Below are positions 4,228 through 44,020 of a DNA stretch of 51,968 nt, piece by piece. The notes under the pieces were generated by a model. That model was not told the origin of the DNA, ran no database searches, and worked only from the letters and a program-made list of their open reading frames with translations. Each line of letters begins with the position of its first letter. Position 1 is the first letter of the stretch. Origin of the DNA: Balnearium lithotrophicum (GTDB lineage Bacteria; Aquificota; Aquificia; Desulfurobacteriales; Desulfurobacteriaceae); NCBI RefSeq assembly GCF_900182585.1, contig NZ_FXTM01000013.1, forward strand, positions 1 to 51,968, written 5' to 3'. The position numbers and the translations under genes are program-made.

Positions 4228-4288
4228 TTATTGAAAAAGCAAATTTGATATACTTAAAAATCATTTCAAATTTTAGAAGAGCTAAGAA

Positions 4289-5089
4289 ATGATGAAAGAA
4301 CTAACGATAACTAAGTTGGCAAGATTTATCAGTGCCCATTTAACAAATAGTGAAATAGAAGAAATTCTTCTGGAAGCTGGTGATTCAGAATCTTGTAGGG
4401 ATTGTAATGAACCTATTTCTGTTTACAGAAAAAACAATCCACAGTTTTCCTCTAAGGAGAAACGTCTTAAAAATGTTTTTTTGTATTATTCAAAACAAAC
4501 CTGGTATGATGGAAGTTACTATTACTGTTTATTAGAAATTATAAATGCTTTTTATACTAAAATACATGATTTTAAAACTACTGATGAGGGAAAAGAAATT
4601 TTAAAAAGACTACATGATGACGGTATTGAAATAGAAAGACTTGGAATTAAAAAGGAACTTTATGATAGTTTTGATTTACCAGAAAAGATTAGTCTTATAA
4701 GAGAGAAACTCACAGACTATAATCTTGAAATTTCGCTTCATCACATTGATGAAGCTTTATCAAGTTATAAACTGGGAAACTATGCATCTGCCAATAGCCA
4801 AATTAGAACATTCTTTGGTGCTTTTTTTCAGGAAATAATGAAAAAGCTTCAAAGAGATTGTGAGGGCGAAGGAGATTGTAGAAAGAAGTTTTTAGAATTT
4901 TTTCTTAAACCGGTGTTGGATGAAAAAGAATTCAAAGCTATAGATAATATGCTAACTGGATTTTCCAAGTTTCTACATTCCAAAGGTTCTCATCCAGGTA
5001 TTCCTGATAAAGCAACTACGGAATTCCGCCTTACAGTAGCTGTAGCATGGGTTTTATATACTCTGGAGTTACTTAAAAATAAGATTTAG
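4289..5089 (+). CDS. Cargo (moron) protein, possible HEPN/Abi-like
   Basis: A 266-residue plus-strand gene inserted between the minus-strand gp25 and gpJ genes. The N-terminus carries a Cys pair (SCRDC). The C-terminal half is all-helical, with residues from about 155 (DEALSSYKLGNYASANSQIR) to the end resembling the helical C-termini of abortive-infection proteins, including HSKGSHPG near the end. I do not see a definite RX4-6H HEPN catalytic motif, so enzyme activity is uncertain. Its opposite orientation and different, AT-richer coding style suggest an acquired gene expressed from the prophage, perhaps for superinfection exclusion. It ends 4 bases into the gp25 stop region. Confidence 0.6.
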   Translation: MMKELTITKLARFISAHLTNSEIEEILLEAGDSESCRDCNEPISVYRKNNPQFSSKEKRLKNVFLYYSKQTWYDGSYYYCLLEIINAFYTKIHDFKTTDEGKEILKRLHDDGIEIERLGIKKELYDSFDLPEKISLIREKLTDYNLEISLHHIDEALSSYKLGNYASANSQIRTFFGAFFQEIMKKLQRDCEGEGDCRKKFLEFFLKPVLDEKEFKAIDNMLTGFSKFLHSKGSHPGIPDKATTEFRLTVAVAWVLYTLELLKNKI

Positions 5090-5658: not shown

Positions 5659-6216
5659 CTACCCCTTGCTTGCCTTAACGTTTATTGAATAGTCTGAATG
5701 AGGTTTTCCTGTAAACGGACAAATGCAATCTTTTGTAACTACTCCAGATAAATCTCCAGTTCCACCATCTATTAAGACTTCTCTGTTTGCCTTGATTACT
5801 ATTTTTCCATCCTCACGAAGAATTAAAATTTCATTGCCGTTGGGGTCTATGATTTTTATAAATCCTTCATCATCCGAGATATGAATCAGATTTCCAGATG
5901 GGGTTTTAATTAAAAACTGCTTGTTGTTTTTCATTTCAGTTGAAGGTTCACCTTTTCCAAACCAGGTCCCTATCCAGACGGGCTTTGTTGTATCAGGCTT
6001 AAGGTTGTAGTTCCCCTCAAACGTTACCCAAACTGTATCTCCTTTCTTAGGAATCATCCAAAAGCCATAATCAGAGCTCCCACCTATCGGTAAAACTGGA
6101 TACGCCCAAGGTAAATCCTCTGTTCTATATCCGTCATAAAGCCCAATAACTCTCACTTTTAATCTTCCCATTCCAAGAGGGTCTTTGTCCTCTTCCACTA
6201 TTCCTCTATAAAACAT
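5659..6216 (-). CDS. Baseplate spike/assembly protein (gpV / gp5 OB-fold-like)
   Basis: This 185-residue protein has the gpV/gp5 OB-fold: YRGIVEEDKDPLGMGRLKVR at the start, WAYPVLPIGG and PKKGDTVWVTFEGNY in the middle. After residue 95 come short beta repeats (GNLIHISDDEGFIKIIDPNG, then NEILILREDGKIVI), the pattern of the trimeric membrane-piercing spike helix. The C-terminal 'CICPFTGKPHSDYS' resembles the metal-binding tip or PAAR-like end. No lysozyme domain is present. It follows the hub gpD by 2 bases. Confidence 0.85.
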   Translation of the reverse strand: MFYRGIVEEDKDPLGMGRLKVRVIGLYDGYRTEDLPWAYPVLPIGGSSDYGFWMIPKKGDTVWVTFEGNYNLKPDTTKPVWIGTWFGKGEPSTEMKNNKQFLIKTPSGNLIHISDDEGFIKIIDPNGNEILILREDGKIVIKANREVLIDGGTGDLSGVVTKDCICPFTGKPHSDYSINVKASKG

Positions 6217-6218
6217 TT

Positions 6219-7364
6219 TTAGCTCCTATTGATAGTTCCTGAAACTGGTTGGTTTGCCGTAGAAATGGCGTTCCTTATAAGCCTTAGTTCTGTCCTAAAA
6301 TCCCCTACGGAAATAGAGTGTTTTACTCCAACTACTTGGTAAATACCGCTTGTGTAATGGAGTTTTACCCTCTGCCCTTTCTTTATGTAGACGAGAACTT
6401 TAATGTTGGATAGTGGCTTTATATCTGGATTTCCGAAAATTTCAGCTGAAGCAGTTACTGGGATATCGGCACTTTTACCCCAAAGGTTCTTTAAAACAGT
6501 TAATTCCTTTCCCGTTTCACTGGAAAATGGTCTTAAACTCTCAGCTTTTACAGAAACCTTTTTAGTATCAAGTTTTACGTTCTTAACTGTTTTCTGATTT
6601 ATTTCAAAAACCTGCTTTTGCTTTGTAATTGGGTCGTAGCGAACTGCTTTGACATTTTCTCCAGTTGAATTGATTCCTAAAAGCATGCTGCCTTTCACTT
6701 CTGGTTCAAAACTGATTAAGGGCTCATGCTGCAAATGAGTTGCATTGTAAGCAAAGGTTTTAATTGGTTTATTTTCCAGGGGAAGTCTTTTGAAGTGGAG
6801 CTTGTTGTCTTTCCAATTTACTGTAAATGGAGATTCATTTGCCCTTTGATTGGCAAAGGGTAGTAGTTTCTTTAGGATGAACTCGTAATCAGTTTCATTC
6901 TGCTGATAGAAAGTCCCCCTTTCTTTGACGTCGTCAACTTCACACTCTATTCCATTTTCCCTGCATATCTGTTTCACAATATTTGAAGGTGTATCGTGAA
7001 AACTTCTGTTTTTCTCCTTGCTCATTAAGGGAATTCCGCCCTGAGCAACTGTTTTTATTTCAACCTTTATTCCCACTGGCATAAAGTGAGGAGTGTAATC
7101 AAGAATTTCTCCCTTAAAGATATAAGACGATTGCCTCTTTCCGTAATCATCTATCCAGCCAAATTGAAATTCAATTTTTTCCCCTATGTGGGAAGCAAGA
7201 ATTGATTCTACATAATCCCCAATCAAGTCGAAAAGTGAAATAGTAGCCGTAGCTATTTTATCCGCTGGAATATCTATTTCTGCAGAAACCTTTTGAACAT
7301 CGGTTGGTAATTCTCTTCCGTTTAACTTTACTATTAAAAACGGTCTCTTGTTAACGGGAGCCAT
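6219..7364 (-). CDS. Tail hub protein (gpD / gp27-like late control protein D)
   Basis: The 381-residue protein matches the gpD fold: N-terminal 'PFLIVKLNGRELPTDV', a beta-barrel with IEFQFGWIDDY and YIFKGEILDYTP, then SFHDTPSNIVKQICRENGIE and 'YQQNETDYEFILKKLLPFA', typical of hub proteins that hold the spike. It overlaps the upstream LysM/gp53-like gene by 14 bases. In P2-type phages this protein is also called late control protein D, but here it is best read as the hub of the baseplate. Confidence 0.88.
   Translation of the reverse strand: MAPVNKRPFLIVKLNGRELPTDVQKVSAEIDIPADKIATATISLFDLIGDYVESILASHIGEKIEFQFGWIDDYGKRQSSYIFKGEILDYTPHFMPVGIKVEIKTVAQGGIPLMSKEKNRSFHDTPSNIVKQICRENGIECEVDDVKERGTFYQQNETDYEFILKKLLPFANQRANESPFTVNWKDNKLHFKRLPLENKPIKTFAYNATHLQHEPLISFEPEVKGSMLLGINSTGENVKAVRYDPITKQKQVFEINQKTVKNVKLDTKKVSVKAESLRPFSSETGKELTVLKNLWGKSADIPVTASAEIFGNPDIKPLSNIKVLVYIKKGQRVKLHYTSGIYQVVGVKHSISVGDFRTELRLIRNAISTANQPVSGTINRS
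6731..6743. promoter_or_regulatory. GCAA-N5-TTGC palindrome inside gpD gene
   Basis: A perfect copy (centre ATGAG). On the minus strand it follows TTACA and so weakly resembles the promoter-embedded copies, but no convincing -10 is seen. Confidence 0.4.
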
Positions 7365-15768: not shown

Positions 15769-17208
15769 TTAGCTTGTGATAGTTACAAGACCATAAAGTC
15801 TTGCATTGACGGCTTTGAATGCTTCTCTGCTTCTAAGAGCCTTTTTCTTTGTGAATGGGTCGATTCTGTTGTTAACAACCTCTGGCACTGCAGGGGAGAT
15901 TTCGAACTTGTAAGGGAAGTATCCAAATCCCATTAGAAGTGGGTCTGCTGGTTTTATTCCAACAACTATTACATCATCTGGTAATTGAGGGTTGTAATAA
16001 ACAGTGTACTTCTTATTAAGGGTTCCAACCCTTGCAGAGCCTACGTTCCCTTCAACGTTTGTATTCCCTTCAAATCCATCAAGATCTCCTACATGAGCAA
16101 GGGCATCTGTACCGCAGAGGAGAAACTTGTTTCCTACAGGGATATAGCCAAGTTGCTTAGCAATAGCTGCGTCAACCTGATTGATAGCCTTCTTAAGTAA
16201 GAACATGTGGTCCTTGTCGCTTACTCCAGAAGGTGGAGTTACACTCCATGTAGCCTTAGCACCTGATGCCTGAGCTAATGCATAGAGTTCAAGATGAATT
16301 TTTGCTTCTGTTTCAAAAATAGCCTGTTGGCTCATAGCAGAAACCATGTCTGGCTCAAGGGAGATGCCAAAGTACGCCTGAACATCCTCCTCAAATTCTG
16401 AAGTCCAGGAAGCTCCAATTTTTCTTGACATTACTTTAACTTGCTCACTTTCATATTTAAACTTGATTTCTGCATAACTGTTGGATTCCTGGTCGTACCT
16501 ATAGGTTGCCTTTACAACCTCACCCTTGGCTGGAGCTGAGGAGAACTCAATAGAAACCTGTCCCGTTGAATAGTTTATAGTTCCAGAAACTCCATCTCCA
16601 GAGATATTTCCTGAACCATCATCCTTGCCTACTATTGTTCCAGCAATCACCGTTACTGTTCCTGGAATAACAGGTTTAAATTGGAGAGTTGCTGAAAATG
16701 TGGTTTTAGTACCGTCTCCTGTGCCAAGGGATGGGTCGTCAACAACTAAGTCTGCTGCAACATAGGGCTGGTATTTATTGTTTGTATTGGTAGCTGCAAG
16801 TTCCGTTCCTGGTTTAAGAGACCCTTTTACGCTGTCTAAAACAGGCTTTCTGTAGAAAATCTTTCCTTCTGGAGCTACTAAACCTCTTACATGGACAACT
16901 TCAAAAGCTGAAAGATTCTGATAAACATAGCTAACCATTCCAAGGTAGTTAAGGTCAAATGGAGGAATATCTGCCGTTGTGTTTGCTTCACAGATTATTG
17001 ATTTTCCTTGGAGGAAAGATTCTAAAACTTTCTCTCTTTCAACTCTGGCACTTTTTGCAACCTGTTCAAAGGCGTTATTGATAGCTATTGCCATAGAGGC
17101 TTTATCGTCTGGAGATAAATGTTCGGGGATAAAATCCTTATAGTCCTTTGCCAGTTCAAGACCAAAATTCCTGTACTCTTCATGACTTTCAAAAGTGATG
17201 TGAGCCAT
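15769..17208 (-). CDS. Major capsid protein (gp23-like) with Ig-like insertion
   Basis: The 479-residue protein has an N-terminal charged delta-type region, probably cut by the prohead protease, then an HK97-type core (IFETEAKIHLELYALAQASG, then LLKKAINQVDAAIAK, and DDVIVVGIKPADPLLMGFGY). Residues about 150-245 form an inserted beta-sandwich with GTGDGTKTTFSATL and 'GTINYSTGQVSIEFSSAP', an insertion known in other gp23-like capsids. It follows the protease gene by 3 bases, with AAGGAGGT upstream. Confidence 0.88.
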   Translation of the reverse strand: MAHITFESHEEYRNFGLELAKDYKDFIPEHLSPDDKASMAIAINNAFEQVAKSARVEREKVLESFLQGKSIICEANTTADIPPFDLNYLGMVSYVYQNLSAFEVVHVRGLVAPEGKIFYRKPVLDSVKGSLKPGTELAATNTNNKYQPYVAADLVVDDPSLGTGDGTKTTFSATLQFKPVIPGTVTVIAGTIVGKDDGSGNISGDGVSGTINYSTGQVSIEFSSAPAKGEVVKATYRYDQESNSYAEIKFKYESEQVKVMSRKIGASWTSEFEEDVQAYFGISLEPDMVSAMSQQAIFETEAKIHLELYALAQASGAKATWSVTPPSGVSDKDHMFLLKKAINQVDAAIAKQLGYIPVGNKFLLCGTDALAHVGDLDGFEGNTNVEGNVGSARVGTLNKKYTVYYNPQLPDDVIVVGIKPADPLLMGFGYFPYKFEISPAVPEVVNNRIDPFTKKKALRSREAFKAVNARLYGLVTITS

Positions 17209-17211
17209 CTT

Positions 17212-17820
17212 TTACCTCCTTACTGGTAATCCAAGTTTTTCGTAGATAGTTGTTACGGAAACGGTTTTCTCTTCGTTTACGCTGCTTTTCCCCTTTGGCT
17301 CTCCCTGATTGCTTTCGTCTATCGTTTTTCTTATGCTTTCTTCAAATTCCTGGATTAGCTTATCAACCTGCTCTTTAGACTTAGCTTCTTTAAGAATGCC
17401 TGCTTCTTTGATTTTGTTTCCGTATGGTGATTCAGAGAGTTTCTGCTCTATATATAAAGCAATTTCCTTGCGTTCTACGTCCTCTTTAAGAGTTTTAATT
17501 TCGTCATCCTTCTTCCTTAAAGACTCTTCTAACTGCTTTATTCTGTCTTTTAATTCCTCAACATGCTCACCTGCAATACCCTCACTTATGAAAGGCTTGA
17601 GAATATCGATTATTCCCTCGACAGCAACTTTTGCCCCTGCTATATCAGGGTCGGAGAGGAGCTCCTCTTTAATTTCTTCTCTCATTTTTGAGCTTTTCTG
17701 TTCTATAGCTTCTATTACTCTCTCTTCAAATTCCTGTCTTAGCTCCTCTTTCGCCTCCTTTTTAATAGCTTCAACAAGGTCTGGATAATCTCTCTTTAAA
17801 GTTTCCAGCGTAAGCTCCAT
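17212..17820 (-). CDS. Nested in-frame scaffold protein (internal start)
   Basis: Within the protease-scaffold gene, ATG 17820 (MELTLETLKRDYPDLVEAIK) is preceded by AAGGAGG 8 bases upstream. It would give a 202-residue, almost purely coiled-coil protein without the protease. The arrangement mirrors lambda C and Nu3, where an internal start in a protease gene makes the scaffold. The internal start is inferred; protein data would prove it. Confidence 0.65.
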   Translation of the reverse strand: MELTLETLKRDYPDLVEAIKKEAKEELRQEFEERVIEAIEQKSSKMREEIKEELLSDPDIAGAKVAVEGIIDILKPFISEGIAGEHVEELKDRIKQLEESLRKKDDEIKTLKEDVERKEIALYIEQKLSESPYGNKIKEAGILKEAKSKEQVDKLIQEFEESIRKTIDESNQGEPKGKSSVNEEKTVSVTTIYEKLGLPVRR

Positions 17821-18348
17821 CGGTTTATCCTCCTTCGATTCTTTTATCGGCTCAGGGAAAGCTCCTGGAGTTGATGGGTCATAGACAACGTCAAAAGCGA
17901 GGAATTCGTAGTCCTCTCCAACTACAACGGTTCCGTCTGCCCTCTTTATAAGAGTTCCAGAGCCTCTTGAAGAGATTCCAAACTTCACGCCGTTGTCTAT
18001 GAGGTTTTTAAGGATATCTCCCTTTGGAGTTCCTACAAGAACTTCTGCTTCTCCAATTACTTCTCCCTTATCGTTCATAGAGAGAGAAGTTATCTTTATT
18101 GCAGCTTCATCAAGCCTTGTTTTTCCGTCGGCAGGGTGCTCTATCATCCCAAGAGCTCTGCCTTCCCTGATTAGTCCTTGATACTTTGCAACAGCCTTTT
18201 CAAGTACTTTCTTTGGGTAAATTCTTCCATTTCCATTTTTTACATCTGCTCTCTGGAAAATGCCCTTAAACTTGTATTTGCCATCTTTTGATTCAACAAG
18301 CTGAGGGGTTATTTCTGAGACAAAATCAATTATCAGCTGTTTACTCAT
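17212..18348 (-). CDS. Prohead core protease fused to scaffold domain
   Basis: A 378-residue protein from ATG 18348, which has AAGGAG upstream. The N-terminal 150 residues match phage prohead serine proteases (gp21/U9-type): FKGIFQRADVKNGNGRIYPK, then LGMIEHPADG with the His and 'FGISSRGSG' with the likely Ser. After residue 175, long charged coiled coil runs to the end, a gp22-like scaffold. The C-terminus (TTIYEKLGLPVRR) may act as a capsid-binding tip. A strong internal start lies at 17820. Confidence 0.85.
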   Translation of the reverse strand: MSKQLIIDFVSEITPQLVESKDGKYKFKGIFQRADVKNGNGRIYPKKVLEKAVAKYQGLIREGRALGMIEHPADGKTRLDEAAIKITSLSMNDKGEVIGEAEVLVGTPKGDILKNLIDNGVKFGISSRGSGTLIKRADGTVVVGEDYEFLAFDVVYDPSTPGAFPEPIKESKEDKPMELTLETLKRDYPDLVEAIKKEAKEELRQEFEERVIEAIEQKSSKMREEIKEELLSDPDIAGAKVAVEGIIDILKPFISEGIAGEHVEELKDRIKQLEESLRKKDDEIKTLKEDVERKEIALYIEQKLSESPYGNKIKEAGILKEAKSKEQVDKLIQEFEESIRKTIDESNQGEPKGKSSVNEEKTVSVTTIYEKLGLPVRR

Positions 18349-19177
18349 CTTTATCTCCTTCGTCCTCTTCACCAAAGAAGATTTCTTCAACGTCTGTAAG
18401 GAGTGCATCTATGTTCTCAATGGCGGCTTCAATCTCCTTTTCATCGACATCATTATCCTTCAAGCTTTCAAGGAAGTCTGCTAAGTATTCAAGCTCTGCA
18501 ATTGCAGATTTAATGCCTTTTGTATCTTCAAGTTCTCCAAGGATTTCGAGGAGAGCATTGATTCTTTCAAGAAGCTCATCTATTGTAGGCAATTGAGTTG
18601 CATTTTGAGATTCACCGAATCTTTGCCTAAATTTCTTTCTGTACTGCTTAAGTGCAGTTTTGTTTCTTTTAGCCCACTGCTTAACAGCTCGGAGAATCTT
18701 TGCTTTGTTTCTACGGTAATAAGCTTTTCTTTTTGCCCTGACAGATGCAGGGACAACTTTATGTTTCATCTTTCTTATACCAACCCTTATAGCTTCAACT
18801 ATTTCTTTATCCTCTTTCTCATCCTTATAAAGTTTGGAAAGTTTCTCAATAAGGGGCTTCATAGTAGAAGAGGATGTTTTAACTTTTCCTTTTGCTACAC
18901 TCTCTATAAGCTGGTCAAGTTTCTTTTTTATAGGTCTTCCAGATAGGAAATCTTCCACAATGTCAGCGGGAGTGACTGTGGACTCCTCTATTGGTTTTAA
19001 CTCTATTTTATCCTCTTTGAGATAAGCTCTATAGTGTTTCCCTTCATGCAAAATAATTGCACCATCTTTGAATGTTCCCAAAATTTTGACATCGTCAAGG
19101 GATTCTTGAATTTTCTTTCTGATGTTCTCAGCTTTTGCTTCAAGACTTTCCTGTAAGAGCTTATCAATTATGCTCAT
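18341..19177 (-). CDS. Probable prohead core/scaffold-related protein
   Basis: A 278-residue protein, first gene of the capsid operon. N-terminal helices (MSIIDKLLQESLEAKAENIR), a short beta part (ILGTFKDGAIILHEGKHYRA), a basic central stretch near residues 135-185 (RAKRKAYYRRNKAKILR) and an acidic helical C-terminus. It overlaps the protease by 8 bases. In T4-type phages core proteins lie here, so a prohead-core role is likely; the basic part could bind DNA. It may alternatively be a capsid-bound internal protein. Confidence 0.55.
   Translation of the reverse strand: MSIIDKLLQESLEAKAENIRKKIQESLDDVKILGTFKDGAIILHEGKHYRAYLKEDKIELKPIEESTVTPADIVEDFLSGRPIKKKLDQLIESVAKGKVKTSSSTMKPLIEKLSKLYKDEKEDKEIVEAIRVGIRKMKHKVVPASVRAKRKAYYRRNKAKILRAVKQWAKRNKTALKQYRKKFRQRFGESQNATQLPTIDELLERINALLEILGELEDTKGIKSAIAELEYLADFLESLKDNDVDEKEIEAAIENIDALLTDVEEIFFGEEDEGDKDE
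18589..18601. promoter_or_regulatory. GCAA-N5-TTGC palindrome inside core protein gene
   Basis: A perfect copy, centre TTGAG, in coding sequence (Asn-Ala-Thr-Gln-Leu-Pro). No promoter boxes adjoin it. Confidence 0.4.
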
Positions 19178-25050: not shown

Positions 25051-26913
25051 TTACCACCACCACTCCTCTTCCCCCTCCTCTTCATGCTCTCCTATACTTG
25101 GCTCTATCACTTTTGGAATCTGATTGTCTATAAAACAGCTATAAACTGCTCCGCATAAAGCATCTGCAACGTCTTTACTCCCATCTGGCGGATGGTCAAC
25201 TTTTCTACCGTCAAATTCAAGGGCAAAAAGCTCCTGTAAAAGAGGCTCATAATGGTAGAGGATTATTCTCTGGTCAAAGAATGCTTCTTTCAGACTCATG
25301 TAAGGTTCAAGAGTAGCGTCAACCGAAATCCTTTCAGCGTTATAACCTTTCTGTTTAAACTGCTGAATCGATTCTCTACTCTGAAACTGGTCATAAGAAA
25401 TCCTTCTAACATAGAGTCCGTGCTTTTCAACTATTGCATAGATAAACTCCCTAATCCTGGATATGGGAATTTCTGACTTAGGCACAACTCTAAGAACAAA
25501 ATCAACTTCAGCAATAGGGAGCTCCTCATAATGTTCTGTCCCATCTGGGAGTAATCTCTTAACCTTCTTGAATCCTGCAAAGTGGACCATAGCTACACCT
25601 GTAGCGTCTCCTGTGACTCCAAGGTCAATGTGAATGTATCTTTTTAGACTTTTATCAAGGTTCATCTTTTCATAGTCTATTTGGATGTCTCCAAGCTCAA
25701 CGGAAACTTCTTTACTAAAGGGGTGTTTCTTTTCAGGGTCTATGCAGTTAAGAATTGATTCTCTATCGTGGAAGAAGGGAGCTGTAGTTAAAACAGGTCT
25801 TCCTGCTATATCCCTGATAGCTTTTTCTATGTTCCTCTCAAATGAGAACCTAAACTCTTCCGGTACTAAAATCTGTTCAAAACCACAACTTTGATAAGTT
25901 TTTCCTTTGGCAATAAAGCACTCTGCACAGTCCTTTTCACTATCGATAATCCTTGGAGGTTGAGATAAGCTACCAAGACAGACTCTAAACCTCTTTGAAT
26001 TTTCGTATCCGCTTTTTACATCGTAGATAGCATAACGTCTAATGTAAGCCATAGGATTCCCTTTGAATTCCCTAATCATTCTCTCTGTAAAGTCCTCTGG
26101 ATACTTTGCAGAAGAGAGAACCATTAGCTTCCCTGGAACCCTTCCCTTCTGCTGAAACCTTGATTCTAACCTTCGGTAGAGAGAATCGAAGAGCTCCTCA
26201 GCAATATCAAAGACCTCATTACCCTTTCGCTTCTGACCTAAGAAGTTTGCTTCGTCGATTACTGCTGAAAAAACGTTTAAGCTGATAGCCTCATTACTTA
26301 TGGGAAGAGGCTGGAGAATAATGTTGTTGTGAGTTCTTATTTCCTCTTTTTTTATGTCTATTTCTCCCTCAAGAATGAAATGCTTAAAGAATGGACTTGC
26401 CATAAGGTCGTTTTTGAGTCTATTAAAGAAGGAGGTCATAGCTGTTTTCAAGTTTACAGAGAAATTGACGAGGGCAATTTCAGTAGAAGGGTCTAAGCCG
26501 TAAAACTCCTGAGGGTTCCTTAGAATAAAGAGCTTATAGAAAATGTACTGCTTGGCAATTATTCCAAATGTTGTTTTTCCCCAACCGATAGAACCTGTTA
26601 GCAAAGCTATGATGTAATCACCGTTAAAGAAATTCTCCAATTCCTTTAAGAGCTTCGGTCTAATGTACTTGGCTTTGTTTAGGTAGTATGGAGATAGAAC
26701 AAATTCTCTTATGGAGACTGGCTTAAATCTATAATCTGCATAACGTATCTGGTCTAACAGTGGAGAATAACCGTACTTTTGAATCTCCTTTAGAATTTCT
26801 ATAAGCAAATCAATTGCATCTGGAGATAGATTAAACTCCTCTATGATTTTCTCAAGTTCCGAAATACCTTGTTTTTGTAATTCGTCAACTGCCTGAACTA
26901 AAGAGTCCTTCAT
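25051..26913 (-). CDS. Terminase large subunit (gp17-like)
   Basis: A 620-residue protein. ATPase: Walker A near residues 106-114 (TGSIGWGKTTFG), Walker B near 214-221 (VFSAVIDEANFLG) with the catalytic Glu. C-terminal RNase-H-like nuclease with HIDLGVTGDATGVAM, 'RRISYDQFQSRESI' and HPPDGSKDVADALCGAV giving the acidic residues. It pumps DNA into the head and cuts it. It overlaps the upstream small gene by 4 bases (ATGA). The tail ends in an acidic run and WWW. A GCAA-N5-TTGC site lies at 26805. Confidence 0.95.
   Translation of the reverse strand: MKDSLVQAVDELQKQGISELEKIIEEFNLSPDAIDLLIEILKEIQKYGYSPLLDQIRYADYRFKPVSIREFVLSPYYLNKAKYIRPKLLKELENFFNGDYIIALLTGSIGWGKTTFGIIAKQYIFYKLFILRNPQEFYGLDPSTEIALVNFSVNLKTAMTSFFNRLKNDLMASPFFKHFILEGEIDIKKEEIRTHNNIILQPLPISNEAISLNVFSAVIDEANFLGQKRKGNEVFDIAEELFDSLYRRLESRFQQKGRVPGKLMVLSSAKYPEDFTERMIREFKGNPMAYIRRYAIYDVKSGYENSKRFRVCLGSLSQPPRIIDSEKDCAECFIAKGKTYQSCGFEQILVPEEFRFSFERNIEKAIRDIAGRPVLTTAPFFHDRESILNCIDPEKKHPFSKEVSVELGDIQIDYEKMNLDKSLKRYIHIDLGVTGDATGVAMVHFAGFKKVKRLLPDGTEHYEELPIAEVDFVLRVVPKSEIPISRIREFIYAIVEKHGLYVRRISYDQFQSRESIQQFKQKGYNAERISVDATLEPYMSLKEAFFDQRIILYHYEPLLQELFALEFDGRKVDHPPDGSKDVADALCGAVYSCFIDNQIPKVIEPSIGEHEEEGEEEWWW
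26805..26817. promoter_or_regulatory. GCAA-N5-TTGC palindrome near start of terminase gene
   Basis: A perfect copy (centre ATCAA, same as 24358) over Ala-Ile-Asp-Leu codons about 100 bases into the terminase gene. Confidence 0.4.
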
Positions 26914-27224: not shown

Positions 27225-27710
27225 TCACTTCTTTTCCTCTAACTTCTTTTTCTTTAGGGACTGAAGGGTATCTATCACTTGAGCCAGTTTCTCTCTTTCT
27301 TCCTTTGGAAGTTCAGCCACCTTACTATCAACCTGAATCTGTTGAGTTGCAACCATATTAACTTCATCAGGAACCTTTGGAAGAAGTCCCATGCTTTGCA
27401 TTATCTGGACTCCACGAGCGTTGGTTTCTCTGATTTCTGCCAAGACCATAACTTTCTCTCTTACATCCTTGGCTTTATCGTAGTTCTTCCAGAGCTCTTT
27501 CTCTATAGCTTGAAACTTGACTTTCACATCCCAAGGATGGAGTCCATCCTCATCCCCTTCCCTGATTTCCTTAACTATTTGATGAATTCTCTGAGGAGTC
27601 TTACCAAGGAGCTTTGCTATTTCAGTCTGAGAAAGTCCACGGGCAAGCAGTTTTATAACCTTACTTCTTAGCTCGTAACTCTTTTTTGACTTAGTGACCT
27701 TCTTCGCCAT
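27225..27710 (-). CDS. Terminase small subunit-like, HTH protein
   Basis: A 161-residue basic protein. Residues about 12-50 are a helix-turn-helix (VIKLLARGLSQTEIAKLLGK then TPQRIHQIVKEI). The remainder is helical, ending in a Lys/Glu tail (LQSLKKKKLEEKK). This fits a small terminase subunit that recognises the packaging site. The position upstream of the large subunit supports this. No direct proof; other DNA-binding roles are possible. Confidence 0.7.
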   Translation of the reverse strand: MAKKVTKSKKSYELRSKVIKLLARGLSQTEIAKLLGKTPQRIHQIVKEIREGDEDGLHPWDVKVKFQAIEKELWKNYDKAKDVREKVMVLAEIRETNARGVQIMQSMGLLPKVPDEVNMVATQQIQVDSKVAELPKEEREKLAQVIDTLQSLKKKKLEEKK

Positions 27711-27755: not shown

Positions 27756-28559
27756 TCAAATTTCCTGATTATCGTTCAAATCAGAAAATCCCTGTGGTTC
27801 TAAGCTTTCGCCGTTTTCCTCAAGGTCTCTTTGAATAGCATAGGCAATTCCAGCTACAACGTAACCGTTCTCTATTTCTGTAATAGGAGCTTTTATTAGC
27901 TTCATAAAGGCTTCTTCATCTGTCATTTGGAGGTCTCTTTTGTACTTTTCTATCAGGGTTTTAACTACGTTCATGTTTTCACGGGAGAGCATAACTGTAA
28001 AGGCTTCTCTTTTTACATTTTCTATTTGCCCTTCGATTTCAGCATGGTCAAAGAGCTCCTGAGTTTCTTCCTCATCCTCTTCCATAACTGCCTTTAGGGC
28101 TTCTATATCGTCATCAAAGAACCCTTCCAATAGTTCCGTTGGTACAGTTTCTTCAAGAAGCTTTAAGTATTCCCTATAGGCTTCCTCATCGCTGTCAAAC
28201 TTTCCTCGGATGGTATCTATAAGACCAGTAGCTAAAACAGCCTTTTCCTCTGGAATGTCAGCTACAAGGAATGGAGCTTCCTCTATGCCTGCATGTTTTA
28301 AAAGGTAATAACGGTGTTCTCCATCTATGATTATGTATTTGTTTTTAGCTTCATCATAGCGGACAAGGATTGGTTCTATATAGCCAACCTTCTTTACCGA
28401 TTCGGCAAGTTTCTTGAATGCAGTTTCTCCCATTACGTTAGGGTTGTACTTGTTTGGCTCTACATCCTTTAGTTTCAGAACTTCAAGTCTTATTGGACTC
28501 TTTATTTCATCTGCTTTTACTTTTGCGGCAATTTCTGAAAGGCGGTGTTTGAAAGACAT
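27756..28559 (-). CDS. ParB/sulfiredoxin-fold protein in packaging operon
   Basis: A 267-residue protein with an N-terminal ParB-like domain: LKDVEPNKYNPNVMGETAFK, then VGYIEPILVRYDEAKN, YIIIDGEHRYYLLKHAGIEE. The DGEHRY box is the nucleotide-binding motif of ParB/Srx-fold enzymes (CTPase, nuclease or kinase). There is no HTH after it; the C-terminus is acidic and helical. Proteins of this type often stand beside terminase and may act in DNA processing. GGGGAGG lies upstream, after a hairpin. Confidence 0.8.
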   Translation of the reverse strand: MSFKHRLSEIAAKVKADEIKSPIRLEVLKLKDVEPNKYNPNVMGETAFKKLAESVKKVGYIEPILVRYDEAKNKYIIIDGEHRYYLLKHAGIEEAPFLVADIPEEKAVLATGLIDTIRGKFDSDEEAYREYLKLLEETVPTELLEGFFDDDIEALKAVMEEDEEETQELFDHAEIEGQIENVKREAFTVMLSRENMNVVKTLIEKYKRDLQMTDEEAFMKLIKAPITEIENGYVVAGIAYAIQRDLEENGESLEPQGFSDLNDNQEI

Positions 28560-28581: not shown

Positions 28582-28599
28582 GGAGGGCAGAAGCCCTCC
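28582..28599 (-). other. Stem-loop after small basic gene (no U-tract)
   Basis: On the minus strand GGAGGGC-TTCT-GCCCTCC, a perfect 7-bp stem with a tetraloop seven bases after the stop of the 38-residue gene. No T-run follows. It closely resembles the stem-loop at 41503. Perhaps an RNA stabiliser or pause site. Confidence 0.55.
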
Positions 28600-28605
28600 A
28601 GGGTT

Positions 28606-28722
28606 TTACTTTTTCGCTTTGGCAGTAGCTTTCGTGGTAGCTTTACCTTGAGCTTTAGCTGTGGCTTTTTTAGTGGTTCCTTTTGTTCCACCTGTTTTTG
28701 TAGCACCTGGGCTCATCGGCAT
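28606..28722 (-). CDS. Small histone-H1-like basic protein B (38 aa)
   Basis: A 38-residue protein of extreme composition: MPMSPGATKTGGTKGTTKKA and then Ala/Lys repeats (KAQGKATTKATAKAKK). AAGGAGG is 8 bases upstream and overlaps the stop of the neighbouring copy. Its first 17 residues are identical to those of the 57-residue neighbour, so a tandem duplication happened. The composition is like histone-H1/Hc1 tails or a DNA-condensing peptide. It lies just upstream of the ParB-fold and terminase genes. Confidence 0.75.
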   Translation of the reverse strand: MPMSPGATKTGGTKGTTKKATAKAQGKATTKATAKAKK

Positions 28723-28735
28723 GCCAGTTACCTCC

Positions 28736-28909
28736 TTACTTTAATTTTTTACCAGTTTTGTAGCCTGAACCTGCAAATCCTCCGTGCTTCATGGCTTTTA
28801 CAACTGAACGGGCTCCTTTGTTGACCTTTCCAGCTTTTACTCTTGCAGAAGCCTTTCTTGTAGTTCCCTTTGTCCCTCCTGTTTTTGTAGCACCTGGGCT
28901 CATCGGCAT
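28736..28909 (-). CDS. Small basic protein A (57 aa), paralogue of B
   Basis: A 57-residue basic protein: it starts with the same first 17 residues, MPMSPGATKTGGTKGTT, then RKASARVKAGKVNKGARSVV and a Gly/Lys tail (GGFAGSGYKTGKKLK). It follows the radical SAM gene, with AGGAGGTGAAC just before ATG. It probably binds DNA and may be a head-internal protein or a peptide substrate. The radical SAM enzyme next to it could act on it; this is only a location-based idea. Confidence 0.75.
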   Translation of the reverse strand: MPMSPGATKTGGTKGTTRKASARVKAGKVNKGARSVVKAMKHGGFAGSGYKTGKKLK

Positions 28910-28919
28910 AGTTCACCTC

Positions 28920-30341
28920 CTATTCAAATTCAATTCCAAACTCTTTAAGAAATTCAGTGGATAGAACTCCATCAGTTACTCCATCCTTTGGATTTGTTTT
29001 AGCCTGCAGGAGCTCTATTGACGGTAGGAATACAGCGAGAGGGTCTCCATTTTCGTCTACTAACAGGTTCCCTTCACTGTCCTTTACTTTCCATACAGTG
29101 TAGTCTTCAAAGAGGTTGTGTCCTGCCTCCTTTAACCAGCCGTATCTGAGCATTTCAAGAAAGCTCATCTGTTTCAAGGCTTTTGAGAAAGCTCTATCTA
29201 TCTGGAAGCTGGAATGGATATCTCTAAACCTCTGGGAGTATGGAAATGCAATTAAATTGCAAACTTCCTTAGCAGTTTCTATAAATTCGGAAAGTGTAAA
29301 GACAAAGATTTCAGAGTCCTTTCTCTTGCGAAGTTCATTAAGAATCATCTGGATGGTTGGAACTATTTTTGGAGAAAAGGTATCTACAAGGTTTTGGTAG
29401 GTTACCGTGTAGCTTCCTTCATCATCTAAAGGATAATTAATCGACTTTATTAATGTATTGAGCTCCCATTGGTAGCTTGTTCTTACTTCTAAGTCTTTTG
29501 AAATATTTTCTATTTCCTGGAAAAGTTTTGATAGTTTAGGGAAATTGGCATATACTCCCTTTCTATTGATGTAGTAATACTTACTTGCTGGAGGGGATAG
29601 TTCAAGGAACTTGAAATTCTCTGGAATTATCTTTAGAGTTCCTCCTCTAAAGTTTAGAGCTCCAAAAGTTACCTCTCTCGCCCCTACTTCTTTTGCCTTC
29701 GTCAAAAGTTTCTCTATCTCCTTAAGTGTAGGAAATTGTGAATGGAGAAATGGGACAACGTTTATTCCAGTTGGAATTCCAGCTTCATTGAGCTTGGCAA
29801 CAAGCTCGAATCTTTCTTCAGGAGATAGAGATTCAGGTTCATACTTTTTTCTGTATTTATCACTTAGAGAGGTTATTGTTATCAATCCAGCTCTTGGAGT
29901 GGACATCTGAATGAGAGTTTTAAACAGCTCTTTTGTATGGATTCCTTTGGTTGTGAAAAAGAATGGGAAACCATATTCATCAAAAATCTCTAATAGTTGT
30001 CTTGAGACGCCTTCGCAGCCAGGTACAAAAATATCTGAATTATTGGAGGCATAAATAGGATAGCGGTTCTTTAAATACCAGTCTAAGAAACTGTTAGGGT
30101 TTGGGTTCTTATCTGCCTTTTCTACTGTAGAAACGGTCGAGTGTATTAGCTTTGAAGGGCTGCCAAGTCCACCTACAGAAAGGTCAAATATTTTTTTCTT
30201 GTTTATGCAGGCAAAACAGTAAGCACACCCTCTAAAACACCAGCGGAAGGCTTCATAGTTAACACCTATAGGAAATGCTGGAATGGAACCAAAAACAGTA
30301 AAGTTGTTGGCTTCTTTAAAGAAATTGACCTTTTTACCCAA
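28920..30341 (-). CDS. Radical SAM protein (spore-photoproduct-lyase-like)
   Basis: A 473-residue protein from TTG 30341, with GGAGG seven bases before it (a more upstream TTG lacks a site). The CX3CX2C cluster motif is RWCFRGCAYCFAC near residue 35-45. Downstream 'ASNNSDIFVPGCEGVSRQLL', TTKGIHTKELFKTLI and GLITITSLSDKYRKKYEP resemble the SplB/photolyase-like radical SAM group. Thereafter a long unassigned domain. It is the first gene of the packaging operon, preceded by a promoter-operator-terminator. The substrate is unknown; DNA lesions, bases or the adjoining basic peptides are possible. Confidence 0.8.
   Translation of the reverse strand: MGKKVNFFKEANNFTVFGSIPAFPIGVNYEAFRWCFRGCAYCFACINKKKIFDLSVGGLGSPSKLIHSTVSTVEKADKNPNPNSFLDWYLKNRYPIYASNNSDIFVPGCEGVSRQLLEIFDEYGFPFFFTTKGIHTKELFKTLIQMSTPRAGLITITSLSDKYRKKYEPESLSPEERFELVAKLNEAGIPTGINVVPFLHSQFPTLKEIEKLLTKAKEVGAREVTFGALNFRGGTLKIIPENFKFLELSPPASKYYYINRKGVYANFPKLSKLFQEIENISKDLEVRTSYQWELNTLIKSINYPLDDEGSYTVTYQNLVDTFSPKIVPTIQMILNELRKRKDSEIFVFTLSEFIETAKEVCNLIAFPYSQRFRDIHSSFQIDRAFSKALKQMSFLEMLRYGWLKEAGHNLFEDYTVWKVKDSEGNLLVDENGDPLAVFLPSIELLQAKTNPKDGVTDGVLSTEFLKEFGIEFE
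29248..29260. promoter_or_regulatory. GCAA-N5-TTGC palindrome inside radical SAM gene
   Basis: A perfect copy (centre TTAAA), in coding sequence for Cys-Asn-Leu-Ile-Ala. Confidence 0.4.
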
Positions 30342-30361
30342 AATTTCCTCCAAAAAAACAA

Positions 30362-32598: not shown

Positions 32599-33296
32599 CA
32601 CTCCTCCTTTACGACTACAGGCAGTTTGCACTCTTGGGCAATTTCCTTAACAGATTCCTCTACTTGACCATCCTTGCTTATATAGGCAATGTTAGTAATA
32701 GGAGCATAAAGAAATATCCCTGTTTGGAAAACTGGTTGGAAGTTTAATTTTTCAAGAGGATTTGGAATGGAATAGGTCAAATCCCCCACTGTACGGTCAA
32801 CCCACTTTCCATATTTTCCTCTGTCCCCTGTTTCTTTTCCTTTTAGGACATAGTAGAGTAATGCCATACAATTCTCCTTAAGTTCACTGTGTTTAGGATC
32901 CATCTTAGGACAGGGAATTTTAGTAATTCCTTGTTTCTTAATTTCTTTTACTAAGTCCTGCCAGTTTTGAATTATGGCGTCTGAATGGACAAAAAGCATT
33001 TTGGAACCTGGAGAAAGCTTCTGAATAGGAAAGTTTTTAGGGATTCTCCTGCTGATTCCTTTAATTTCTGCCTCTCTAATAAAATCCCAAGGAGATTCAT
33101 AGAATTTCTTCCCAACCCAGATTAAAACATGATAGATTCCTGTTCTTTCGTCCCTGTACAGAATTGGAGCTCTGAATGGTTCTTGATTGATTGGAATCGG
33201 TAAGTCAAAGATAAAGTCTTCAATCGGAGCTCCATCTGGAGAAGGGGTACTTTCTAAGTAGAAAGCCTTGTCCTTTCTTTCTCCACATCCTCTCAT
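32598..33296 (-). CDS. Hypothetical protein (232 aa)
   Basis: It starts MRGCGERKDKAFYLESTPSP; then 'RAPILYRDERTGIYHVLIWV' and a C-terminal section with PNPLEKLNFQPVFQTGIFLY. Moderately conserved-looking alpha/beta protein, role not recognised. It overlaps the ParB-like gene by 4 bases. Confidence 0.6.
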   Translation of the reverse strand: MRGCGERKDKAFYLESTPSPDGAPIEDFIFDLPIPINQEPFRAPILYRDERTGIYHVLIWVGKKFYESPWDFIREAEIKGISRRIPKNFPIQKLSPGSKMLFVHSDAIIQNWQDLVKEIKKQGITKIPCPKMDPKHSELKENCMALLYYVLKGKETGDRGKYGKWVDRTVGDLTYSIPNPLEKLNFQPVFQTGIFLYAPITNIAYISKDGQVEESVKEIAQECKLPVVVKEE

Positions 33297-34342
33297 CTTT
33301 CCACCTCCACGGTTTGGTTTAGGTATTTAGAAACTATCTTAAGCAATTTACTTGCATTCCTTATTAGAGCTTCATTACCGTTGGCAAGGATTTTTATAGC
33401 ATTGGCGATGTTTTGGATTTCTTTCATATCCTTCATTAAGCTTTTGTTATCTTGAGTTTCAACGGTCGGGAAGGGTTCAGTATTGGAAAATGTATTTTCT
33501 GGAATTTCAGAGGAAATAGCTTGAGGATTTAACACGTTCTCCATAGGAAGTTTAACATCAGGCAACCTTACTCTTGCTTCTTCAAGGGCTACCTTAGCAC
33601 TCTTTTCTATCTTCTTTTGTCTTACGAACTTCTCAACATCCTCAACTGTCCATTTGCTTTCAGGATTCTGGAGATACTCTTTTTGGTCGTCTGGAAAAAG
33701 TTTTGCAAGTTCGCGGGCAACTGTAATGTTAATTTCAAATCTCTTAAGTTTCTCAAATATTTCAGGAATAAGATTCAGCAGTTTCAATCTTTTAGTTATG
33801 TGTGAATTTGAGACGTTTAAAAGCCTTGCAACTTCGCTTTTCTTTAGGTTTCTTTCCTCTATAAGTTTAGCGATTAGCTCAGCTTCAAGGGCAGGGTTAT
33901 CGGCTCTATGAAAGTTTTCAACAAGAGTAAGCACTGGATTATCCCCGTTCTCTTTAACGATACACTTAACTTTTTCAAAACCCAAAATCCTTGCAGCATT
34001 TAACCTTCTCCTACCAGCTATAACTTTGTACTTTCCATTTCCTGCAGGAGAAACTAACGGCGGTTCAAGAATTCCGTACTTCTCAACGCTTTCAAGAAAG
34101 TTTTTAGGGACATCAAATTCTGGGAACTCAATAAGAGAAAGGGGAATTTCTCTAAGCCCTTCTTTCTCTCCCTCAAGCTGGAAAATAACTTCCTCTACAT
34201 CGGGAAGGGAGAGGCTATCCTTCCTCTCCCGTAGTATTTTAAGAGTTTTAGGTTTTATCAATCTGGTAATAGAGCTATTGTTATCAGAAATCCTAACTTT
34301 TATTTTGTCCTTTACTCTTCCCTTGTTTTCTATCTTCACCAT
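33293..34342 (-). CDS. ParB/RepB/Spo0J-like partition protein
   Basis: A 349-residue protein: N-terminal ParB domain with EIPLSLIEFPEFDVPKNFLE, 'VIAGRRRLNAARILGFEKVK' (the GERR box variant GRRR) and ENFHRADNPALEAELIAKLI. The HTH is KSEVARLLNVSNSHITKRLK. The C-terminus is charged and ends in a helical part. It could bind a partition or operator site. No ParA is seen in the window. AGGAGGT precedes the ATG. Confidence 0.85.
   Translation of the reverse strand: MVKIENKGRVKDKIKVRISDNNSSITRLIKPKTLKILRERKDSLSLPDVEEVIFQLEGEKEGLREIPLSLIEFPEFDVPKNFLESVEKYGILEPPLVSPAGNGKYKVIAGRRRLNAARILGFEKVKCIVKENGDNPVLTLVENFHRADNPALEAELIAKLIEERNLKKSEVARLLNVSNSHITKRLKLLNLIPEIFEKLKRFEINITVARELAKLFPDDQKEYLQNPESKWTVEDVEKFVRQKKIEKSAKVALEEARVRLPDVKLPMENVLNPQAISSEIPENTFSNTEPFPTVETQDNKSLMKDMKEIQNIANAIKILANGNEALIRNASKLLKIVSKYLNQTVEVER
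33343..33355. promoter_or_regulatory. GCAA-N5-TTGC palindrome at end of ParB-like gene
   Basis: A perfect copy (centre TTTAC) 50 bases before the next gene start, in the C-terminal coding part of the ParB-like gene. A partial leader copy (CCAAACCGTGGAGG) follows it. Confidence 0.5.
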
Positions 34343-34351
34343 AGCGACCTC

Positions 34352-35485
34352 CTAAAGTTTTACAGGCATTACAACTACTTTAAGTTCGGGCTCTTGGGAA
34401 CATTCAAAGAGAACTGGGGAGATTGCAGAGGTATTAAATAGCATTTTTATGGTTTCCTTAGAGAAAGTTTTAAGAGTTGTAGATAGGTGGTTAAGATTAA
34501 ATCCTATTGTTGCAGGTTCCCCTGACACGTTAGAGTCAATTTCTATCTTAGAAATTGCCTTTTGATATTTTCCATCAACAAGTTCTTTAGCAGACAAGGT
34601 TAATTCTTTTTTAAGTATTTCCAACTTTCCACAAGGAAATGAATCTTTTTCAAATAGAACAGAAACCTCATCGATTGATTCAAGAAGAGTTTTACGACAA
34701 AAAGTAACCTTATTTGGATTATCCTCTGGAACAACCGCTCTCCAATCTGGATATGTACCTTCTATGGTCTTCCAAGTTAAATAGTAGTTTCCAGCCCTTA
34801 CACCGACTGCATCGTCTGAAAAGGTGCCTATTTCAACAGACTGTGAATTAGAAAGGAAATTTTTGAAAAGAGATATTACTTTACGCCTTATTAATATTTG
34901 AAACTCTTCATCTGGAGGTTCTTCCCAGTCTACTCTATACCATGCTAAATAATGTCCATTGGAGGCTATAAAATGAAGAGCATCCTTCTTGGCTTCAATA
35001 TATAGAGAATTAAGAATCTCTCTTGCTTCATCATCGGAAGTAAAGGGCAAGAGCTTTTTGCTGATATTAAGAAATGTATCTGTATCCATTTCTAATAAAG
35101 GTTTAAATTCTCTGGAGATTTCAGGAAATTCCTCTACAGGGTGAGGTTCATTAAAGGAGAAAGAAGTTTTGCCTGTGTCCACAATTATTTCCCGTTCTTC
35201 TTCACCCTTTCTTACCTCAAATACAACTGAATTGCCTTTCGCTTTCGAAACTATTTTCTCTAACCTCTTGATAGGAAAAACAAAACTTCCCTTTTCACTT
35301 TGAAACTTGGCAGGTATTTCAGCCCATCCAGTAACTTCAAGATTAGTTGTAGTAAGTCTCAGTTTTCCGTTTTCAAGTTCTGCAAGTAAACAGGAAAGAA
35401 TAGGAATGGTGCCTTTAAGGTCAGCAGTCTTGAGGAGTTTCTTAAGGGCATTTGATAAGTCTTTTCTTTTTACCTCCACTTTCAT
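34352..35485 (-). CDS. dnaN: DNA polymerase sliding clamp (beta) homologue
   Basis: A 377-residue protein from ATG 35485, which has GGAGGTGTAG before it. The three-domain clamp pattern is clear: MKVEVKRKDLSNALKKLLKT, 'NLEVTGWAEIPAKF' in domain 1, 'ASNGHYLAWYRVDW' in domain 2, IGFNLNHLSTTLKTF and a C-terminal VVMPVKL. It tethers the host polymerase to DNA. The phage has no polymerase in this window, so it may swap the host clamp or supply extra processivity. Confidence 0.9.
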   Translation of the reverse strand: MKVEVKRKDLSNALKKLLKTADLKGTIPILSCLLAELENGKLRLTTTNLEVTGWAEIPAKFQSEKGSFVFPIKRLEKIVSKAKGNSVVFEVRKGEEEREIIVDTGKTSFSFNEPHPVEEFPEISREFKPLLEMDTDTFLNISKKLLPFTSDDEAREILNSLYIEAKKDALHFIASNGHYLAWYRVDWEEPPDEEFQILIRRKVISLFKNFLSNSQSVEIGTFSDDAVGVRAGNYYLTWKTIEGTYPDWRAVVPEDNPNKVTFCRKTLLESIDEVSVLFEKDSFPCGKLEILKKELTLSAKELVDGKYQKAISKIEIDSNVSGEPATIGFNLNHLSTTLKTFSKETIKMLFNTSAISPVLFECSQEPELKVVVMPVKL

Positions 35486-35498
35486 TCTACACCTCCAT

Positions 35499-35511
35499 GC
35501 AATTAATTTGC
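35499..35511. promoter_or_regulatory. Intergenic GCAA-N5-TTGC palindrome before clamp gene
   Basis: A perfect copy (centre TTAAT) directly before the CATGGAGGTG site of the clamp gene, overlapping the stop of the preceding small gene. Confidence 0.6.
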
Positions 35512-35697
35512 TTTCGTTTTTCTGTAGGAAAAATCGAAAATACCTACAGAGCAACCAGTATTTTGAGAAATTTCGTTAGCAATTGGGTAAGTTTCAGAGC
35601 TGTCTTTCCCTACTGCGATTATTCTTACTTCCGCCATGTAGGGTTGATAAGGTAAGGCAAGTTTCAACTGATAGGTTTTAAGTTTTTTCCCAGCCAT
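35503..35697 (-). CDS. Small hypothetical protein (64 aa)
   Basis: From ATG 35697, MAGKKLKTYQLKLALPYQPY, with GTGGAGG before it. A beta-like protein with a central EVRIIAVGKDSSETYPIANE stretch. It follows a palindrome-bearing promoter at 35737. No function is recognised. Confidence 0.6.
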   Translation of the reverse strand: MAGKKLKTYQLKLALPYQPYMAEVRIIAVGKDSSETYPIANEISQNTGCSVGIFDFSYRKTKAN

Positions 35698-40373: not shown

Positions 40374-41081
40374 CTAAAACGGAAATTCTTTTATCAATTC
40401 AATTCCAAATCTTTTAGCAGCATCCTTAGTAAAAAAGGCAATTCTTTTCTTCTTGCAGAACTCCTTTATGGGTTTTATCCAGGAATTAGAGAACTGATAG
40501 AAAGGATGGTATTTCCTTCCGGTTAGAGGTCCTACTATTACCCATTTGTAGTATTGCAGGTAGTCTAAATCTCTTATCGACTTTAGAAGTGGTTCTAACG
40601 AAATAAACAGTTTAACTTCGGGAAATTTGGAGATAGCTTTTAAGAGTACTTTTGTTCGCTCTGTGAGCTCCAGATTATTAGTTGCAGATACTCCAATCCA
40701 AACATTTTCAGGAATAATTTCAGGAAATTTCTTATAACTTTTGGGATTTTTAGAGAGAAATAAAAATATTTTATCTTGCTCCTGCTCTATTCTTTCAAAG
40801 ACTTTTTCAATCCAATCTCGCTTCCAAAATACTATGTCGCTCATAGAATTTACAAAGATTATCCCTTCTCCTTTTGAGAATTTGCGAGCAAAATTCTTTG
40901 GCAAGAACACGGGCTGAAAGTTCTTTAACCTTTTTGTATCCTTCGGAGAAAGATTGTTACTCTTTGCTATGTTTCTGTAAAATCTCCTTGCAAATTTCCT
41001 TGCATAGCAGAAAGGGCAACCATGAAGACAACCCCATACTGGATTCCATACTTCATCACACCAGTCTATTTTAGTTGACAT
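40374..41081 (-). CDS. Phage gp37/gp68 family protein (DUF5131, radical-SAM-like)
   Basis: A 235-residue protein beginning MSTKIDWCDEVWNPVWGCLH. The CX3CX2C triad (CLHGCPFCYA) follows a WNPVWGC box, the signature of DUF5131 proteins known from many phages. Later 'IIFVNSMSDIVFWKRDWIEK' and 'FLFLSKNPKSYKKFPEIIP' also fit. A Fe-S and SAM dependent activity is likely from the triad; the substrate is unknown. It lies just upstream of the initiator gene. Confidence 0.88.
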   Translation of the reverse strand: MSTKIDWCDEVWNPVWGCLHGCPFCYARKFARRFYRNIAKSNNLSPKDTKRLKNFQPVFLPKNFARKFSKGEGIIFVNSMSDIVFWKRDWIEKVFERIEQEQDKIFLFLSKNPKSYKKFPEIIPENVWIGVSATNNLELTERTKVLLKAISKFPEVKLFISLEPLLKSIRDLDYLQYYKWVIVGPLTGRKYHPFYQFSNSWIKPIKEFCKKKRIAFFTKDAAKRFGIELIKEFPF

Positions 41082-43944: not shown

Positions 43945-44020
43945 TGGAGCGGGCGACGGGACTTGAACCCGCGACCCCAACCTTGGCAAGGTTGTGCTCT
44001 ACCAACTGAGCTACGCCCGC
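43945..44020 (-). tRNA. tRNA-Gly (GCC), copy 1
   Basis: Acceptor GCGGGCG/CGCCCGC, anticodon loop TTGCCAA giving GCC, T-loop GGTTCAAGTCC, encoded CCA. It is identical over 76 bases to the plus-strand copy at 51220-51295. Confidence 0.96.

Follow-up and report, generated by a model that had tools for sequence, protein, structure and literature searches.

Two neighbouring genes in a prophage of Balnearium lithotrophicum encode tiny, strongly basic proteins that begin with the same 17 residues and then diverge. We asked what these proteins do beside the genes for DNA packaging and why they share an N-terminus. The window, meaning the whole 51,968-nt stretch of DNA analysed here, is one entire contig of a 1.73 Mb genome and holds a T4-like, contractile-tailed prophage. 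On the tail side, this prophage encodes a tail fibre, baseplate J, an OB-domain baseplate protein, a T4 baseplate protein and a sheath. Its head genes are of T4 type and include Portal_T4, a Gp23-type major capsid protein (15769..17208, minus strand; Pfam Gp23 E=1.5e-23) and a Peptidase_S77 prohead protease of the T4 gp21 type (17212..18408, minus strand; Pfam E=3.5e-27). A sigma-like factor and an S24 repressor are also encoded. The prophage further carries a gene for a DNA polymerase III beta-clamp-like protein (34352-35554, minus strand), and a second gene of ParB type (33293-34342) adjoins it. Of the window proteins scanned, none was identified as an integrase. Two tRNA-Gly(gcc) genes, identical at 76/76 positions, lie in a tRNA array by the repressor end of the prophage (43945-44020, minus strand) and near the contig end (51220-51295, plus strand), a pair possibly linked to integration.

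The local gene order is radical SAM, long peptide (P0002), short peptide (P0001), ParB_N protein, HTH protein, terminase large subunit (TerL) and portal. This bears out the earlier note on this DNA, which had placed the peptides between a radical SAM and a ParB-fold gene. The radical SAM protein gene (28920..30353, minus strand; 477 aa) was recognized by Pfam Radical_SAM at E=9e-7, and the ParB_N-domain protein gene (27756..28559, minus strand; 267 aa) by Pfam ParB_N at E=6e-15. The HTH protein gene (27225..27710, minus strand; Pfam HTH_23) precedes TerL and is by position a probable small terminase subunit. TerL itself (25051..26913, minus strand) was assigned through PHROG terminase large and through tblastn to annotated phage terminases over at least 80% of its length, and it is related to the TerLs of many phages.

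As the earlier note had said, P0002 (28736..28909, minus strand) has 57 residues, P0001 (28606..28722, minus strand) has 38, and the 17-residue N-terminus, MPMSPGATKTGGTKGTT, is exactly common to both. Their net charges are +15 and +10, and per residue they rank second and third among the 320 window ORFs of at least 35 aa. Neither contains Asp, Glu or Cys. P0001, with its Ala/Lys/Thr tail, has 10 Lys and 8 Ala in its 38 residues, and P0002 has 12 Lys, 7 Ala and 11 Gly in its 57. A low-confidence structure prediction for P0002 gives a floppy N-terminus, a helix at residues 16-43 and a floppy tail. PDB matches for P0002 to ribosomal eL30 and a tape measure protein were non-significant and were rejected.

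The translation signals, read from the sequence, are tightly packed. The SAM stop codon shares bases with the Shine-Dalgarno AGGAGG of the long gene (28916..28921, minus strand), and the stop codon of the long gene does so with the AGGAGGT of the short gene (28730..28736, minus strand). Because of these overlaps, the SAM and peptide genes are probably translationally coupled. The junctions overlap likewise in L010, a viral contig from IMG/VR, with TAAGGAGG between the SAM and long genes and GGGAGGTAA between the long and short genes. In L006, a prophage of the same-genus genome G004, TAAAGGAGG lies upstream of the short gene. A promoter and terminator scan found no excess over shuffled sequences.

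The window, L010 and L006 together formed our comparison set. L010 carries homologues of the SAM, long, short, ParB, HTH and TerL genes in the window order, with both peptides intact, and its ParB protein, like that of L006, is 86-87% identical to that of the window. The order is kept in L006 as well, where the short gene is intact and the long gene survives only as a remnant. There, a single deletion runs from SAM codon ~343 to about codon 11 of the long gene. At L006 6060-6231 (G004:C8), SAM is thereby fused to the long-peptide tail in a different frame, which leaves a truncated SAM protein of 355 aa. The remnant (6079-6231) still encodes the tail but has no usable start. An assembly error is possible there, and the broken gene could mean either that the long peptide is dispensable there or that the prophage is decaying.

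Between the window and L010, pS was 0.73 for both peptides, and pN was 0.19 for the long one and 0.24 for the short one. Neighbouring genes had pS of 0.59-0.71 and pN of 0.04-0.09. The peptides are therefore under selection, with proteins kept while synonymous sites are near saturation; they evolve faster than their neighbours, yet their protein sequences are plainly constrained. All three phages conserve KVNxxxRSxVxAxKHxxFxGxGYxxGKK as the tail of the long protein. In L010, a 24-nt tandem duplication (4257-4303) makes the short peptide longer, so that the tail of this peptide varies in length by in-frame repeats. Very short length, low complexity and the broken long copy in L006 would fit spurious ORFs or decaying gene fragments without a product. 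Still, conservation in three phages, the strong synonymous excess, good Shine-Dalgarno sites and the fixed order argue so heavily against this that we give it almost no weight, and the pair is more than a chance likeness.

The known range of the pair is narrow. Neither peptide matched Pfam, PHROGs or NCBIfam, and tblastn with the long peptide found no match among phage and plasmid records. Among 124 loci translated in six frames, peptide HMMs found just the window, L010 and L006. Viral-contig scans with the long and the short alignments recovered the L010 contig only, and a scan with the long peptide alone recovered nothing. In the long alignment used for its viral-contig scan, the L006 remnant carried a made-up N-terminus; the alignment used for the structure model held the true sequence. 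Among 24 genomes of the order, the long peptide occurs only in the window's genome and G004. Related TerLs occur in prophages of G041 and G034, which come from a different family within the same class, and the G041 prophage also has genes of ParB_N-like and HTH type; neither prophage has such peptides. A Desulfurobacterium MAG contig begins inside ParB and is uninformative on their presence. In the more distant phages L018-L020, L027-L036, L123 and L124, no small basic gene close to ParB or TerL was a convincing candidate. Homologues away from packaging and SAM genes would have refuted the earlier note by its own account, and none turned up.

All three phages also have a predicted hairpin downstream of the short peptide gene and ahead of ParB. 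In the window, it lies directly 3' of the short gene (28582..28599, minus strand) and is GC-rich, with a 7-bp stem, GGAGGGC-UUCU-GCCCUCC, and no U run. Its counterparts are GGAGGGC-UUUAC-GCCCUCC at ~4342-4360 in L010 and CGGGGGC-UACU-GCCCCCG at ~6362-6379 in L006. Comparison by eye of the window and L006 hairpins finds two pairs changed on both sides; a MAFFT alignment placed the L010 stem out of register. Only four such hairpins occur in the window, one of them within the tRNA array. In the predicted fold of L010, the 3' arm pairs instead with the Shine-Dalgarno of ParB. From these three sequences, the hairpin might set expression of the peptides apart from that of ParB.

Does the shared N-terminus reflect a function or a copying process? 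The earlier note had taken its strict conservation as the sign of a recognition tag. The two 17-codon segments (28859..28909 in the long gene and 28672..28722 in the short gene, both on the minus strand) have the same first 31 nt, which open a 70-nt DNA repeat of 83% identity between the genes, and DNA identity falls beyond codon 10. Over the first ten codons, with the start codon left out of the count, the long and short genes match at 27/27 nt in the window and 25/27 in L010; any pair of a window and an L010 gene matches at only 19-20/27. Ser4 is encoded by AGC in the two window genes and by TCT in the two L010 genes, and L006 has AGT. Codon usage by itself gives a chance of ~1.6e-4 for eight identical non-Met codons, as seen in the window. 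Paralogues are thus closer than orthologues in these codons, which suggests that in each phage the 5' ends have undergone gene conversion or repeated copying and are not kept alike by constraint alone.

This evidence, from five genes in three phages, seems good but not conclusive. Given such apparent homogenization within each phage, exact N-terminal identity is in itself no proof of strict constraint, though the segment is also conserved across phages. Conservation is strict between the two copies of this phage, while from one phage to another the sequence is variable (MPMS[PS]G[AG]T[KR]...). A recognition tag is still plausible, but the evidence for gene conversion has weakened the argument that had been made for it from strict conservation.

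Our leading interpretation, held tentatively at a probability of about 0.4, is that these are DNA-binding peptides that probably enter the phage head by way of the shared N-terminus and stay uncleaved. On this account, a tandem pair of lineage-specific genes would yield tiny, mostly disordered, strongly basic proteins whose Lys-rich tails bind DNA. The Gly/Thr-rich N-terminus would be a docking segment that brings both proteins into the prohead core. Inside the head, the peptides would help to neutralize the packaged DNA, with which they may also be ejected. Gene order and selection conserved in three phages, the strongly basic composition free of acidic residues, the low-confidence P0002 model, the T4-type head and the position beside packaging genes speak for this account. 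On the other hand, terminase-adjacent genes need not encode virion proteins, and gene conversion alone could explain the identical N-termini.

The closest functional precedent is in T4, where the internal proteins IPII and IPIII share a common N-terminal capsid-targeting sequence of ~10 residues (PMC9958956). For the remainder, T4 internal proteins differ widely from each other, and their lysines are in contact with DNA phosphate (PMC3012670), in the manner that we suppose for the tails here. Like IPII and IPIII (and IPI), the peptides are small, share a short N-terminus before diverging and belong to a phage with head genes of the gp20/gp21/gp23 type. Unlike the T4 internal proteins, they are smaller still, carry a Gly/Thr-rich tag and have no L/I-x-E site; no similarity to proteins of T4 or other phages was detected in PHROGs or by tblastn. 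The peptides may work like T4-type internal proteins, and we do not claim membership of that family.

The giant phage SPN3US offers a second parallel, in which the first 15 residues of gp53 and gp54 are identical and the remainder has diverged (PMC5694885). These are also neighbouring paralogues, but they are much larger, have long cleavable propeptides and show no sequence similarity to the pair described here.

Cleavage is where both precedents part from our peptides. A gp21-type site has the form L/I-x-E (PMC9026906), and a motif scan found none in P0001 or P0002, which have no Glu at all. The earlier note's suggestion of a head-protease cleavage site is therefore not supported for the window peptides, although the prophage has a T4-type Peptidase_S77 and its capsid protein contains a possible gp21-type site, ICE74/A, in the same kind of scan. 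In T4, Asp at position 10 blocks cleavage, and targeting still works (PMC9026906). The docking segment proposed here could act in a similar way, as a capsid-targeting sequence that the prohead protease leaves uncut.

The simpler reading of the earlier note, DNA condensation, agrees with the composition of the peptides insofar as they lack acidic residues, have an Ala/Lys-rich tail and, in P0002, a weakly predicted helix. The same tail resembles histone H1-like and Hc1-type proteins and likewise suggests DNA binding. However, the peptides are far shorter than these proteins and have a conserved N-terminus that is not of H1 type, and neither matched the H1/Hc1 family models of Pfam, including PF07432, at E <= 1. 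H1-like proteins of that family have been reported in other phages, with function unknown (PMC12619734).

DNA or RNA binding could also take place outside virions. Intracellular binding is nearly as likely as the head-internal reading: during lytic growth, the peptides would coat phage DNA or RNA or form bridges in it, possibly assisting the adjacent ParB-like protein and the terminase, and the shared N-terminus would be a remnant of tandem duplication maintained by gene conversion. Their basic composition, their coupling to SAM and position ahead of the ParB and HTH/TerL genes, the homogenized 5' ends and the missing head-protease site are all compatible with this. Yet the N-terminus has been kept between phages whose synonymous divergence is near saturation, which suggests more than a leftover, and the long tail has a conserved motif of its own, KHxxFxGxGYxxGKK, for which generic charge would have no need.

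A different possibility, which we consider unlikely, is that the peptides take over the host or counter its defences by binding a target such as RNA polymerase, the ribosome or a nuclease. Lineage-specific genes that evolve fast relative to their neighbours and have no known domain would suit such a role, and T4 itself provides an example in the internal protein IPI, an anti-restriction protein (PMC3012670). Low-complexity tails, at least in the short peptide, argue against a specific binding surface.

The adjacent radical SAM gene raises the question of whether the peptides are modified. The earlier note had entertained a ribosomally made, radical-SAM-modified product. The shared N-terminus would then be a leader and the divergent tails the cores of RiPP-like precursors. 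Known precursor-maturase pairs likewise combine small ORFs and a common N-terminus with an adjoining radical SAM gene. The main point in favour is how closely the SAM and peptide genes are coupled, in the window as in L010, and the one deletion in L006 strikes the long gene together with the 3' end of SAM.

The enzyme itself looks different from such maturases. It has the motif CxxxCxxC at residues 39-46, and its Pfam matches were only Radical_SAM and a sub-threshold HTH_22, with no SPASM or RRE/PqqD match; the quality of an AlphaFold model was too low to show whether an RRE-like domain is present. About seven Cys are required in SPASM domains (PMC5682303), and the C-terminal half of this protein has one, so there is no room for such a domain. 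Its nearest NCBIfam families, both below cut-off, are rSAM_PA0069 and Rv2578c.

The peptides also fit poorly as substrates, with no Cys in either and tails of low-complexity Lys/Ala/Thr, and L006 retains the short peptide despite its truncated SAM protein. Moreover, the viral contig L022 (2543-4546) has a weak SAM relative close to a ParB_N-like gene but no such peptides, a hint that ParB and SAM genes may be recurrent neighbours. Modification as RiPP-like precursors is thus disfavoured and, in our judgement, very improbable. We hold just as little belief in a combined version, in which SAM would modify both histone-like peptides through an N-terminal docking leader and the modified, DNA-condensing products would travel in the head. 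Elsewhere in the prophage, a DUF5131 protein (40374-41081, minus strand) with a weak radical SAM match is a second SAM-like gene product.

If the peptides only bind DNA, they would constitute a minimal family of H1-like phage proteins, not described before and limited to a small group of phages, which would be of modest interest. If the head-entry tag is real, a phage of a thermophile would have a capsid-targeting sequence without a protease site, carried by neighbouring genes that gene conversion homogenizes. The requirements of such tags would then become testable, and a heat-stable tag could serve for loading proteins into phage heads.
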